Shown: one piece after another, positions 9,161-60,556 of the stretch | Layout: every line of letters starts with the position of its first letter | Numbering within the stretch: position 1 is the stretch's first letter | NCBI GenBank assembly: GCA_903825395.1 | Contig: CAIKAF010000006.1 | Location: forward strand, 62,001-126,000 | Length of the DNA: 64,000 nt | Direction of reading: 5' to 3' | Source of the DNA: an uncultured Flavobacteriales bacterium | Lineage (GTDB): Bacteria; Bacteroidota; Bacteroidia; CAIKAF01 | Position numbers and translations under genes: made by a program | Notes under the pieces: generated by a model | What the model was told of the DNA's origin: nothing | The model's input: the letters and a program-made list of their open reading frames with translations, nothing else | Databases searched by the model: none

Positions 9161-9306
9161 TTTGCGGGCCGGATGGAACGGGGTAGCCCGTACGGGGGGA
9201 GGCATAATGGGCGCGTGTTGGGAAGAGCGACCTTGGGAGCTACTTCCCAACCGCTGCCCATATGCCTACCCACGGCGGACTACCCGAGACAGCCGGTCAC
9301 CCGCCC
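9161..9306 (-). repeat. GC-rich structured element, family G copy 1
   Basis: About 146 bp between the divergent S46 peptidase and purS genes. Read on the minus strand it starts TTTTTTGGGCGG and contains the family core GCTCCCAAGGTCGC. Stems specific to this copy are perfect: GTTGGGAAG with CTTCCCAAC around the core, ATGGGC/GCCCAT and GGCATA/TATGCC outside it, and GGGTAG/CTACCC as the outer helix. These pairs differ in sequence from other copies but keep pairing. Confidence 0.75.
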
Positions 9307-9347
9307 AAAAAACATGTAAGAAAACGGATTAAATCGGCGGGGAGAAT

Positions 9348-24487: not shown

Positions 24488-24751
24488 CAAAACCTATCCT
24501 CTTTACTCCCCAACATAAAAAGGCTGATATGCCACACCAACCCCGTCTCATACCCGAAATTCCCGCTTCCCATTTCATCAAAGTTGCCTCCAATGCAAAC
24601 AGGAAGCATTTCTGAGACTCCCCATATGAATCCAGACAAGCCTTTCAGCTCATCCAAAACTCACAACAAACTTCACGTCATAAAATAACCCGAAGTGTTC
24701 CTCGCCACCCCAATACGTGACGAAGCAAATAAAGAACGTTTCACCAGTGAA
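24488..24751 (-). ncRNA. Candidate structured RNA, family R copy 2
   Basis: Minus-strand, about 264 nt, 220 nt past the end of the ABC permease gene. Compared with copy 1 it keeps the 5' hairpin (24740-24751), the CTTCG-type hairpin (24700-24725), the long-range helix (24613-24618 with 24545-24550) and the conserved GGCAACTTTG, and adds an inner helix GCTTCC/GGAAGC. The 3' stem CCTTTTTA/TAAAGAGG (24498-24523) is followed by TTTT. Similarity to copy 1 runs over the whole length and is interrupted by small insertions and deletions in loops. The 3' end is approximate. Confidence 0.6.
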
Positions 24752-24754
24752 CTT

Positions 24755-24785: not shown

Positions 24786-24868
24786 GGGCAAAGGCTACAT
24801 TTTTTACCGGTTGCAACCAGATTTTTTCGTCCTAAAGCCGCTGAGCGGCCTTATTTGCTACGCCAACA

Positions 24869-25368
24869 TACATTGTACTAAAGCCGAATTATCAAGATAC
24901 AATTCCTTAACACCTACCCACCCGGCTCCTGACTTGTCCACTTTAGTGCAACAATTGCCGCAAAGGAAGTTGCAAAAAGAACTGAGGGGGAGGACGGCAA
25001 ATTTTCTATTCAAAATCCTACAAGGTATTCTACGATAATGTCACCTACAATAATGCCACCCCTACGGGGTTTTGATGGTCTGAGCTCCAATACGTTCTAC
25101 AATAATGCCACCCCTACGGGGTTCTGGTGTCCTGAGCTCCAATCTGTTCTAATTTGGTCTTATTAATAGGCCTCTAAGACTTCGGTCATGCAATCCATAG
25201 AGGGCAGGTGCTATTAGCTTGTCCACTTTAGTACAACAAATGCCGCAGGACAGGAAATGCAATTCCATGATAATAATTAAGTTATAAAATAACCCAAAAA
25301 ATGGTGAACAAGTCAGGATACATTGTACTAAAGCCGAATTATCAACATACACCTACCCACCCGGCTCT
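24869..25368. mobile_element. Nested repeats, possibly a degenerate MITE
   Basis: No gene is seen here. A 27-bp block beginning TACATTGTACTAAAG occurs at 24869-24895 and again at about 25319-25345, and CACCTACCCACCCGGCTC occurs after both (about 24911 and 25351). Between them lies an inverted repeat, TCCTGACTTGT near 24928 and ACAAGTCAGGA at 25308-25318, extended to 14 of 15 bases. CTTGTCCACTTTAGT also occurs twice (about 24933 and 25219). Inverted ends inside duplicated flanks are what a short non-autonomous transposon leaves, but no transposase or standard target duplication is visible, so this is inference. Confidence 0.4.
25045..25148 (+). repeat. Two tandem 52-bp repeats with a CCCCTACGGGG palindrome
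   Basis: Units start at 25045 and 25097 with CTACAATAATGCC, each followed by CCCCTACGGGG and TGAGCTCCAAT. The period is 52 bp. A truncated third unit begins at about 25029 (CTACGATAATGTCACC). Each palindrome would form a small hairpin in RNA. Repeats of this general form are scattered in many Bacteroidota genomes. Confidence 0.65.
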
Positions 25369-25380
25369 TTTAGCAGGTCG

Positions 25381-25525
25381 CCCGCGGCAGGGATTGAACC
25401 AGGTTGCCCGCAAGGGGGGCCTGGAGCTGCCCGCGTGGCGCGGAGGCGACTTTAGGAGCCACCGCAAGCCCGCTGGGCAGCCCAGTGGCCACCGCGGACA
25501 ACCGGTGAAAGCCCGTAGCCGCCCC
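25381..25525 (-). repeat. GC-rich structured element, family G copy 2
   Basis: About 145 bp, directly after the nested repeats and 23 nt from the end of the exosortase-like gene. On the minus strand it runs GGGGCGGC, CGGGCTTTCACCGG, core GGCTCCTAAAGTCGCC, and ends TTCAATCCCTGCCGCGG. The outer helix is GGTTG/CAACC and CCGC/GCGG. It is very close to copy 5 (53.3 kb). Confidence 0.75.
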
Positions 25526-25548
25526 AATAAATCAGATTAATTCCAACA

Positions 25549-30544: not shown

Positions 30545-30560
30545 TTTTTATTTTTTTGGA

Positions 30561-30706
30561 GGGCGGCTATTCCGGCTTTCGTGGGTAGTACGCGTTGCGG
30601 CGGCCGCGGCAGCAGTGGGTGCAGCGTGGCTCCCAAGGTCGCCCGCTCCACCCACGCTGCCGGGGCCTCCGCCACTGCGCGCTACCCTACTCAATCCGGG
30701 CCGCAC
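30561..30706 (+). repeat. GC-rich structured element, family G copy 3
   Basis: About 146 bp, starting 16 nt after the DUF4292 stop. On the plus strand it has GGGCGGC, the core GGCTCCCAAGGTCGCC, and clear stems: TGGGTG with CACCCA, GGCAGC with GCTGCC around the core, and outer GGGTAG/CTACCC with CGCG/CGCG. T7 precedes the first G block. Confidence 0.75.
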
Positions 30707-46156: not shown

Positions 46157-46566
46157 GCCTCTAGATTCAGCTCTGAAAAGTGCCTAGGGATGAAACATCA
46201 CGGGCACTGCAACCACAGTATATGCTTTAAAAAAGTAAGGAAGGGGGTTCTGCCTCGGACTTTAAAATAAAGCTAAAAACCAACTAGAGCACTGAATCAT
46301 TTTGGGGATTAAGGGGCGTTCATTTTTTTGAAGAGGGTTGGGTAAGGAATTTAAGGGTGTCAGAAGAATTATTCCCCTTTTGGGACTTCAGTTTACTCCA
46401 ACAGCGATTTCCTGAAGGCCATGCTTTGGCATACCAGAAAAAAGGTTGCCTCGCGCCCTTCGGGTCGCCAATCTTTTCCTACCATTTAATGGAATCTTGA
46501 AAATTAATTTGATCCCCTCCCCCTCTTTTCCTCTCCTCCTCAAATCCCCTTCCAATTTCCCCTCCT
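46157..46566. other. Gene-free stretch with a pyrimidine-rich tract
   Basis: About 400 nt between the T9SS gene and the family R RNA. No coding sequence is supported. A C/T-rich tract runs from about 46513 to 46566 (blocks such as CCCCTCCCCCTC). A GC-rich hairpin-like segment (CGCGCCCTTCGGG) lies near 46451-46465. No further structure is recognised. Confidence 0.4.
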
Positions 46567-46594
46567 AAAAAAGGATGAATTTGCCAGTTCATCC
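46567..46594 (-). terminator. Intrinsic terminator of family R copy 3
   Basis: On the minus strand the stem GGATGAA / TTCATCC (7 bp, 46573-46594) with an 8-nt loop is followed by TTTTTT. It starts right after the long-range helix of the RNA, with no gap. Confidence 0.8.
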
Positions 46595-46800
46595 AGTCTC
46601 ATTCCCATGCTCCCGCTTCCTGCACCAGCAAAGTTGCCCTTGCACGATTCAGAAAGCTTTTCTGAGACTCCCCAAGGCGAACCTGGTTCCGTTTTTCAAC
46701 TTCCCCAAATTCCCGTAGTTCACTCCAAAAAGTGCCCTAACTGTTCTTCGCCACCCCAAATACGTAACGAAGCTCTTCTTTTTAACGTTTCATCGATGAA
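46567..46800 (-). ncRNA. Candidate structured RNA, family R copy 3
   Basis: Minus-strand, about 234 nt, from just after the promoter to a strong terminator. It is the most diverged copy, yet keeps the helices: the 5' hairpin is TTCAT/ATGAA (46789-46800) where copies 1 and 2 have TTCAC/GTGAA, a compensated C-G to T-A change; the second hairpin closes CTTCG/CGAAG (46746-46772) where the others use CGAGG; the long-range helix AGTCTCA/TGAGACT (46663-46669 with 46595-46601) is complete; the inner helix is GCTTTC/GGAAGC. GGCAACTTTG and GGGGTGGCGA are conserved. Both ends are well marked, which makes this the best copy for defining the RNA. Confidence 0.68.
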
Positions 46801-46803
46801 CTT

Positions 46804-46834
46804 CAAATTTACGCGAGGATTTTCAAAGTTTCAA
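46804..46834 (-). promoter_or_regulatory. Promoter of family R copy 3
   Basis: On the minus strand TTG (46832-46834), 20 nt, then TAAATTTG (46804-46811). The two variable positions of the -7 element differ from the other copies but the consensus bases are kept. Confidence 0.65.
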
Positions 46835-49330: not shown

Positions 49331-49482
49331 GCGGCCGCGGCCGGGATGGAGCCGGCACCGAACCGCTACCTACCCTGTTCAGCCTGCGCCTTTTGGGGGC
49401 GACCAACGGAAGCCACAAAAAGCGCAACAGGCTGACTGGGTTGGAAAGGTGAGGTACAGGTGACAGCCCGATAAGCCGCCCC
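49331..49482 (-). repeat. GC-rich structured element, family G copy 4 (most diverged)
   Basis: About 152 bp between the ankyrin and yebC genes. On the minus strand it starts T8GGGGCGGC and has a core GGCTTCCGTTGGTCGCC that departs from the others. Pairing persists: CAGCCTG/CAGGCTG and GCGC-TTTTG/CAAAA-GCGC flank the core. Confidence 0.65.
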
Positions 49483-49493
49483 AAAAAAAACCC

Positions 49494-53315: not shown

Positions 53316-53462
53316 CGCCCGCGGCAGGGATTGAACACGGTTGCCCGCAAGGGTGGCGGAGCCTGGCCCGCGCGGCGCGGAGGCGACTTTAGGAGCCACC
53401 GCAAGCCCGCTGGGCCAGCTTTCGCCAACCGCGGACAACCGGTGAAAGCCCGGCTGCCGCCC
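53316..53462 (-). repeat. GC-rich structured element, family G copy 5
   Basis: About 147 bp, 38 nt after the subtilisin gene stop on the same strand. Minus-strand reading: GGGCGGC, CGGGCTTTCACCGG, core GGCTCCTAAAGTCGCC, ending TTCAATCCCTGCCGCGG. Outer helix GGTTG/CAACC. Nearly the same as copy 2, 28 kb away, which points to recent spread. The remaining 250 nt up to 53067 show nothing else. Confidence 0.75.
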
Positions 53463-53500
53463 AAGCCTCATCCTACATTTTACTCCGAATTAACCTCAAA

Positions 53501-56416: not shown

Positions 56417-56529
56417 ACAGGTAAATTCTGCAGGGGAAGATACGACAAAAAGAGGGCTAATGCAGGGCGGTTCCCTGTTAATTTTTTGGAAAAGGGGCGG
56501 CGAAATCAAGCTGAAATCAGGGTTGTTTT

Positions 56530-56675
56530 GGGCGGCAGGCGGGCTTTCTCGGGTAGTCCGCGTTGGCCGGGCGGGCTGCCTGCGGGCTGCGGTGGCTCCT
56601 AAAGTCGCCTCCTCGCCGCGCGGCAGCATCCGCCGGCCCACTTGCGGGCAACCCGTTCAATCCCTGCCGCGGGCG
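56530..56675 (+). repeat. GC-rich structured element, family G copy 6
   Basis: About 146 bp in the upstream region of the subtilisin gene. Plus-strand reading: GGGCGGC, CGGGCTTTCTCGGG, core GGCTCCTAAAGTCGCC, ending TTCAATCCCTGCCGCGG. Faces copy 7 head to head at its TTCAATCCC end, with about 450 bp between. Confidence 0.75.
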
Positions 56676-56700
56676 AATCGAAATTTCAGGGTTTTAGTTG

Positions 56701-56729
56701 AAAAAATGTCTCTTTGAAGAGACATTTTT
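56701..56729. terminator. Symmetrical hairpin, possible bidirectional terminator
   Basis: ATGTCTCTT/AAGAGACAT (56706-56725) is a 9-bp perfect inverted repeat, flanked by A5 on one side and T5 on the other, so it would terminate from either strand. It lies 25 nt after family G copy 6 with no gene reading toward it. Confidence 0.5.
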
Positions 56730-56776
56730 ACCGTCTGGGTTTTAAGCGGTGTGGTCTTGAAGGGAATGTATTTAAT

Positions 56777-57126
56777 AAAAAACCGTCTTAGCGTTGACCA
56801 GGCTTCTTTGCGCCCTTTGAGCCGACATGGAGTTCTTTGTGGTAAAGAAAAAAACAAGGCACAACGGGCAAAATGAGTGTTGCATAACTTGCTGAAATGG
56901 CTGCCAGATTAAATTTTTCTTTAGAGGAGCTTGGACCGTTATTTTGGATAAAATCAATGATTTGACTTTCTTTACGACTAAGCGTTTGAGCTAAATTGGC
57001 TAAGGATTACAGTGTTTTTGGCTCAAATTCATGTTTTTTTGAGCTAAATGTGGGTTTACAATGAGCTAAATCCTCAGAAAACCGCCTTAGTTTTGACCAG
57101 GCCCCTTTGCGTCCTTTGAGCCGACA
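56777..57126 (+). repeat. Pair of 50-bp direct repeats
   Basis: Related copies at about 56777-56826 and 57078-57126 share TTGACCAGGC and CCTTTGAGCCGACA. The second ends 2 nt before family G copy 7. The segment between is AT-rich with GAGCTAAAT three times and carries no supported gene. Similar CTTTGCG..CTTTGAG repeats are known from other Bacteroidota. Confidence 0.5.
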
Positions 57127-57127
57127 C

Positions 57128-57275
57128 GCCGCCCGCGGCAGGGATTGAACCGGGTTGCCCGCAAGGGGGGCGGGACGGCGGCCGCGCGGCGAGGAGGCGA
57201 CCTTGGGAGCCACCGCAGCCCGCTGGCAGCCCTCCCGCCCACCGCGGACAACCGGTGAAAGCCCGTCCGCCGCCC
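57128..57275 (-). repeat. GC-rich structured element, family G copy 7
   Basis: About 148 bp, between two minus-strand T9SS genes. Minus-strand reading: GGGCGGC, CGGGCTTTCACCGG, core GGCTCCCAAGGTCGCC, ending TTCAATCCCTGCCGCGG. Outer helix GGTTG/CAACC. Inverted relative to copy 6. The 175 nt between it and the next gene (57451) hold nothing recognised. Confidence 0.75.
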
Positions 57276-57450
57276 TACTCCCATCCAAACCCAATACGCC
57301 CTCCCCAATGTTTAGGCATGTCCCAAAAGTCCAATGCCCATGGTACAAACCCAAAACCAAACCAATTCTCGAACGAAATCTCCAAACCGACTGCCCAACT
57401 CCGCCTAAACCCATTCTTCCCTTCCAATCAATGGCTCCGGCAAACCAGCT

Positions 57451-60332: not shown

Positions 60333-60407
60333 AGCTAAATTTTAAGGTAAAGGTAGCGCATGAGGGGGATTTTCAAGGCCAAATCAACACCTACATGCTT
60401 CTTTTTT

Positions 60408-60556
60408 GGGGCGGCTTTTCGGGCTTTCGGCCTTAGTCCGCGGCCGTAAGCTACGGCCCCAGCGGCTTTACTGTGGCTCCCAAGGTCGCCTCCGCAGCGC
60501 GCGGGCCCGAAGCTTCCGCCCTTGCGGGCTAAGGCTTTCAATCCCGGCCGCAAGGC
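60408..60556 (+). repeat. GC-rich structured element, family G copy 8
   Basis: About 149 bp between the NdpA start and the PKD gene. Plus-strand reading: T6GGGGCGGC, CGGGCTTTCGG, core GGCTCCCAAGGTCGCC, ending TTTCAATCCCGGCCGC. The outer helix GCCTTAG/CTAAGGC pairs perfectly in full and has a different sequence from the other copies. Confidence 0.75.

Follow-up and report, generated by a model that had tools for sequence, protein, structure and literature searches.

Interspersed repeats in bacteria are usually regarded as parasitic or as junk, and a structured RNA is usually present in one or a few copies per genome, as is the case for the 6S genes. REP/RAYT elements and the IS200/IS605-type palindromic elements occur as many intergenic hairpin copies near gene ends, and HEARO, the omega RNA of IscB, and the TnpB-associated RNAs are structured RNAs of a few hundred nucleotides that are tied to mobile elements and of which standalone copies occur. 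The large bacterial RNAs GOLLD, ROOL, and OLE have elaborate folds without a known mechanism, and several of them multimerise. In the Bacillus cereus group, bcr1 and the related BCR repeats are group-restricted, interspersed repeats of 100–400 bp with tens of copies on the chromosome, bcr1 averaging 39, and a TTTAT motif is reported in connection with bcr mobility (PMC6542083). Searching the literature for multicopy structured RNAs in Bacteroidetes gave no result.

The stretch of DNA analysed here (the window, 64 kb) carries three copies of a promoter-linked RNA family, each on the minus strand (Table 1). The first-pass annotation of this sequence had likewise counted three copies, which holds for the window, whereas the genome contains far more, with covariance-model searches of the source genome (G000) returning 34 matches, comprising 22 full-length copies and 12 pieces at contig ends, and a BLAST search of the same genome returning 37 places. 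As the assembly breaks at the RNA repeat, the true copy number in this genome lies somewhere above 22. The genomes compared are all draft assemblies of uncultured bacteria, in which the ends of copies often coincide with contig ends.

Building models from the copies and searching further genomes, as the first-pass annotation had proposed, recovered a coherent family. Using the covariance models R1 and R2, it was found in four of the six genomes of the genus, with 28 matches in G005, 15–17 in G003, and 8 in G001 in addition to those of the source genome. The same models found no member in the remaining two genomes of the genus (G002 and G004), in ten genomes from five other genera of the family, or, under filters stricter than those of the in-family search, in ~380 other genomes from the class. 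Scanning named genomes with a DNA pattern gave hits in only three MAGs, VGMT01 (K_DeepCast_35m), JAQCBQ01 (casp15), and CAILUT01 (ErkenSummer), which correspond to the carriers G005, G003, and G001 respectively, and whose isolate names read as lake and Caspian samples. On these searches the family is restricted to one clade, a single genus of aquatic Bacteroidota, at ~8–30 places per genome. The family tree contains bursts of near-identical copies together with several old subfamilies, and degenerate copies are present in G001.

Copy 3 is bounded by a promoter and a terminator, both of which had been proposed in the first-pass annotation. The coordinates and the promoter layout given there are exact at this copy, and the TTG-N20-TAnnTTYG spacing recurs without deviation in 55 of 59 copies, the spacer sequence itself being variable, and TAnnTTYG lies at a constant distance from the RNA in 54 of 59. 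In Flavobacterium psychrophilum the −7 box consensus TAnnTTTG lies at −12 to −5 (PMC9723704), which would place the +1 of copy 3 near 46799. The proposed terminator was also recovered, as a 7-bp stem (46594–46573) followed by T6 (46572–46567), with the stem covarying across copies. The tail that follows is composed of a purine-rich stretch and a second hairpin region, and ends near (C)TATTGG.

Table 1. Positions in the window of the RNA copies, the elements of copy 3, and the copies of repeat B.
Feature	Position	Strand	Remarks
Copy 1, diverged subfamily	621–855	−	G000:C6:62621-62855, 205.1 bits; syntenic copies in G005 and G001
Copy 2, diverged subfamily	24516–24754	−	G000:C6:86516-86754, 214.7 bits
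Complete RNA gene, copy 3	46834–46567	−	TTG box to end of T-run
−33 element TTG (family form CTTGA)	46832–46834	−	Exact 20-nt spacing, 55/59 copies
−7 element TAAATTTG (Bacteroidota sigma-A consensus TAnnTTTG)	46804–46811	−	Exactly 20 nt after TTG
12-nt palindrome TTCATCGATGAA at inferred RNA 5′ end	46789–46800	−	Spans about −1 to +11
RNA, ~233 nt, inferred +1 to end of T-run	46567–46799	−	Covariance models R1 and R2 match 46568–46803; covariation
Hairpin H2, CTTCGTTAC / GTGGCGAAG	46746–46772	−	97% of cells paired, 62 copies
Hairpin H4, variable stem, GNRA loop (GAAA)	46677–46714, ends approximate	−	GNRA in 50/62
Domain H5, GTCTCA / TGAGAC around long hairpin with GNRA loop (GCAA)	46596–46668	−	Cells paired 98.6%, 90.6%, 96.7%
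Intrinsic terminator GGATGAA-loop-TTCATCC + T6	46567–46594	−	Two-sided changes in 6/6 pairs
Tail travelling with RNA gene	46398–46566	−	Common to dispersed copies; diverged form in most subfamilies
Repeat B, window copies	9163–9311, 25383–25529, 30559–30705, 49336–49485, 53320–53464, 56526–56671, 57134–57277, 60405–60553		

Covariation in alignments wider than the three window copies indicates that the family encodes a structured non-coding RNA, which bears out the multicopy, promoter-linked structured RNA of the first-pass annotation. In the model alignment of 62 copies, 92% of cells are paired, and two-sided changes are seen in 38 of the 56 pairs compared with 23.4 after shuffling, with none of 500 shuffles reaching 38, whilst sliding the partners by 1–3 columns yields 11–22 pairs only (covariation score 0.346 versus 0.185); cells in these counts are sequences, and not independent events. 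As this alignment leans towards the structure, the fairer test is an alignment of the first 39 copies made using MAFFT without structure, where two-sided changes occur in 26 of the 56 pairs compared with 17.8 after shuffling, above all shuffles and all slid controls (5–22 pairs over both alignments). Single-sequence folding gives z-scores of −1.7 to −6.7. Among the individual helices, H4 shows two-sided changes in 9/9 outer and 3/3 inner pairs of the 62 copies, and the two apical loops swap GNRA members (GAAA, GCAA, GTAA, GCGA, GTGA, and GAGA), the H5 loop being a GNRA tetraloop in 46 of 62 copies and UUCG in one. In the alignment fold TTCAY pairs with an invariant downstream GTGAA; an alternative helix, marked by a fixed exchange of G-C for C-G at columns 77/104, competes with the pairing of the 5′ end to this same GTGAA.

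The conserved first hairpin described in the first-pass annotation is better read as a palindrome of the form TTCA-(TCGA, CTAG, or CTGG)-TGAA. No stable hairpin is predicted for the isolated 5′ 14-mer, with a dimer of 8–10 bp predicted instead, and predicted 5′-end dimers amount to −12 to −15 kcal/mol. We rejected a local 5′ hairpin as the explanation for the T-A/C-G change noted between copies, as the changed pair would close a loop of 2 nt, which RNA cannot form. The centre of the palindrome is self-complementary in 58 of 59 copies, despite taking six forms (TCGA, CTAG, CTGG, TCGG, CCGG, and CGTG), and 18 copies keep this self-complementarity only via G-U pairs. The property conserved at the 5′ end is self-complementarity rather than sequence, suggesting that the palindrome serves to form RNA homodimers or, less likely, acts as a DNA operator.

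Recent duplicates (L058/L060, L027/L028, L043/L047, and others) share only a unit of ~450 nt, which starts ~60 nt upstream of the RNA and runs through to the tail end, with unrelated flanks beyond; some pairs include a neighbouring copy of a second repeat, repeat B. From these pairs, the RNA gene, its terminator, and the ~170-nt tail disperse together as one ~450-nt unit, and the “new RNA repeat” suggested by the first-pass annotation is an apt description to this extent. Neither terminal inverted repeats nor a target-site duplication is evident by eye in the duplicate pairs, and the sole element-free site compared is rearranged. This site, in the close relative G003, was the only candidate empty site read through, and proved to be a rearrangement breakpoint, with synteny between G003 and G000 broken ~130 nt upstream of the RNA at L005 (L250, G003:C20, ~2421). 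One G003 copy (L219, G003:C138) has the left flank of L016 on one side and the right flank of L003 on the other, these being two different loci of the source genome, and RNA copies may sit at points of genome rearrangement, or the MAGs may contain an assembly error.

No homologous flanking genes were found between copies of one genome at the cut-off used, a result that speaks against the RNA acting in cis on one particular type of neighbour. With genes taken as ORFs of ≥100 aa, the neighbouring genes are convergent for 32 of 58 copies, compared with 40 of 320 background gene pairs (12.5%; p = 9e-12) and 21 of 80 long gaps (26%; p = 7e-4). Some syntenic gaps hold copies of different subfamilies in different species, in opposite orientation at L094/L194 and L099/L195, and in the same orientation at L087/L204; such coincidences may be due to chance, given the preference for convergent gaps.

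Comparison of syntenic sites indicates that individual RNA copies are under purifying selection. Over eleven syntenic pairs the RNA distance is 0.02–0.20 and the flanking dS ranges from 0.07 to saturated, with values of 0.09–0.14 and 1.3 to saturated respectively for pairs between the source genome and G005 or G001, and the conserved core at syntenic loci is 82–96% identical compared with 39–65% for the intergenic flanks, which can no longer be aligned. An exception is L101/L222 (G000 and G003), where the RNA distance of 0.13 exceeds the flanking dS of 0.09, so that constraint, or true orthology, does not hold for all pairs. Gene conversion from other copies is an unlikely source of the similarity, as the copies at sites such as L023/L051 and L031/L048 fall into small subfamilies of their own, with the orthologues clustering in the tree.

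As the first-pass annotation had supposed, the RNA lies outside known classes, with none of the 4227 families of Rfam 15 matching in the window at gathering thresholds, and a permissive search of copy 3 and 20 other loci giving chance-level or flank matches only. A sub-threshold match to Flavo-1 RNA (RF01705; 29.8 bits, E 0.008) lies in the flank of one RNA copy (L140, G005:C26, 63–131). The 6S-Flavo model (RF01685) matched neither the six genus genomes nor the control genomes, rendering this search uninformative, and no match to the IscB N-terminal domain was found in the genus genomes, with the control search again uninformative. The annotation had also raised an origin in a mobile element as a potential objection. 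The RNA family has no match in plasmids, phages, or viral contigs, and nine viral contigs in which a chance 17-mer occurs carry no RNA copy. Reverse transcriptase (PF00078) is absent from all four carriers and occurs only in G002 and G004, the two non-carriers, TnpB is absent from all six genus genomes, and Y1 transposase is absent from the carriers G001 and G005 and present in non-carriers; none of the three tracks the family. Mobility by a resident reverse transcriptase, a TnpB-linked RNA, or Y1/RAYT is thus not supported, with the first two missing in the carriers and Y1 in two of the four. The carriers, which lack reverse transcriptase genes, are 2.4–2.6 Mb in size, and the non-carriers of the genus, with one such gene each, 3.0–3.2 Mb.

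Repeat B is ~150 bp long and folds end to end into a single long hairpin whose bulges are conserved (GGCAGGGATTGAAC ... GGAGGCGACTTTAGGAGCCACC ... GTGAAAGCCCG). A first look gives ~200 candidates per genome in precisely the four RNA carriers, and none in twelve other genomes of the family. Within ~700 bp of an RNA gene, repeat B always faces the gene with the same end (as at 25383–25529 and in the other loci compared), upstream copies being inverted and downstream copies direct, with no exception seen, also beside non-convergent genes. Because of this constant orientation, we considered whether B and the RNA gene form a composite with B as its terminal inverted repeats, and rejected this, as B is far commoner and mostly stands alone. 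At 56526–57277 two head-to-head B copies, ~460 bp apart, have no RNA copy between them and enclose a 49-nt direct repeat (56779–56827 and 57078–57126). The interval between RNA copy 2 and repeat B (24868–25351) contains a cluster of direct repeats, ATACATTGTACTAAAGCCGAATTATCAA (24868, 25318) and CTTGTCCACTTTAGT (24933, 25218), and a 52-nt tandem unit with CCCCTACGGGG (25045, 25097).

The best overall explanation, to which we assign a probability of about 0.55, is a structured RNA gene, new and specific to this lineage, that is present in many dispersed copies and probably acts in trans by its shape. In this scheme RNA polymerase would start at a strong housekeeping-type promoter, make an RNA of ~233 nt, and stop at the intrinsic terminator, with the RNA folding into GNRA-capped hairpins and the closed GTCTCA/TGAGAC domain, and its self-complementary first ~10 nt allowing two molecules to pair end to end. 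The ~8–30 gene copies per genome would provide a high RNA dosage, the ~450-nt unit moving into intergenic gaps, preferably convergent ones, where selection would then keep the copies. The homodimeric RNA may bind, hold, or sequester a protein in trans, in principle like the 6S or CsrB RNAs, a step that, taken alone, we propose only tentatively and at less than even odds. The sequence itself shows the anatomy of the gene, its structure and copy number, its dispersal as a unit, the selection on copies, and the restriction to one clade, and expression, trans action, dimer formation, and a protein partner are what we infer beyond this.

A non-autonomous mobile element, SINE- or MITE-like, moved by proteins in trans and with copies useless to the cell, would account for the discrete unit and the unrelated flanks of recent pairs, the bursts of near-identical copies alongside old subfamilies, the degenerate copies in G001, and the restriction to one clade, and the syntenic gaps in which subfamily or orientation differs between species suggest turnover. 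Useless insertions would not, however, be expected to remain far more constrained than neutral sequence at syntenic sites, and with no reverse transcriptase or TnpB in the four carriers, Y1 transposases missing from two of these, and no target-site duplication or clean empty site found, we regard this account as doubtful. Against the trans reading, the bias towards convergent gaps could mean a cis role, for example in separating transcription units. Such a cis element of gene ends, separating convergent genes through terminators, antisense transcription, or insulation with the RNA as a by-product, would fit the excess over background, the terminator and tail hairpins, and the few gaps that are occupied whatever the orientation or subfamily. 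Nevertheless, 26 of the 58 copies lie outside convergent gaps, which may also simply be the safest places for insertion, and a terminator needs ~30 nt rather than a conserved fold of 230 nt with fixed promoter spacing, making a cis element quite unlikely.

A dimeric repressor bound to the 5′ palindrome at the start site could, alternatively, switch all copies, the product then being a regulated stress or phase RNA, and the location of the palindrome at about −1 to +11 of the promoter in nearly all copies is consistent with an operator. A protein that reads sequence would hardly tolerate six different centres and 18 copies paired through G-U alone, which favours RNA pairing and leaves the operator slightly less probable again than the cis element. 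A small protein or decayed coding repeat is extremely improbable, and the family is no protein gene, a match to a known one having been named in the first-pass annotation as a possible contradiction; short open stretches occur in all frames, as in any sequence, but no frame is open across the copies, the indels are not multiples of three, and the stems show compensatory changes.

The multicopy structured RNA gene favoured here is a long folded RNA with its own promoter, which in aquatic Bacteroidota genomes of ~2.5 Mb combines the dispersal of a repeat with the conservation of a gene, and which, if expressed, would count among the RNA genes with the most copies in these cells. It raises the question of how a 450-nt unit spreads without a reverse transcriptase or an obvious transposase. 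More speculatively, a dispersing RNA gene may have been turned to host function, as an RNA-only homodimer or scaffold at tens of sites, spread without any transposase or reverse transcriptase having been identified, and gained together with the ~200-copy repeat B found in exactly the same genomes and always facing the RNA gene with the same end, although we would not expect this reading to hold in full. The exact-spacing promoter, the tetraloop exchange, and the kept self-complementarity are features that can be tested directly at the bench.

Compared with known systems, the family is closest in behaviour to the bcr1/BCR repeats, which are likewise group-restricted and interspersed, with tens of copies and features of mobile elements (PMC6542083). 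No sequence relation to these is known or was found, and no TTTAT-type motif or target duplication is evident here; the RNA unit is further set apart by its fixed-spacing promoter, its own terminator, and the selection measured at syntenic sites. Unlike REP/RAYT elements, the unit is far larger and internally promoted, with Y1 absent from the carriers G001 and G005 and present in non-carriers. In contrast to HEARO and the omega RNAs, the RNA starts inside the unit, which leaves no outside guide, with no Rfam match and no TnpB in the six genomes. GOLLD, ROOL, and OLE differ in that the present RNA is shorter and occurs as tens of dispersed copies, again without an Rfam match. It resembles 6S-Flavo (RF01685), 6S, and CsrB as a free-standing RNA gene that would act on a protein by shape, as is known for 6S and CsrB, yet unlike 6S-Flavo and 6S the family is not matched by any Rfam model. 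We file it as a lineage-specific structured RNA doubling as an interspersed repeat.
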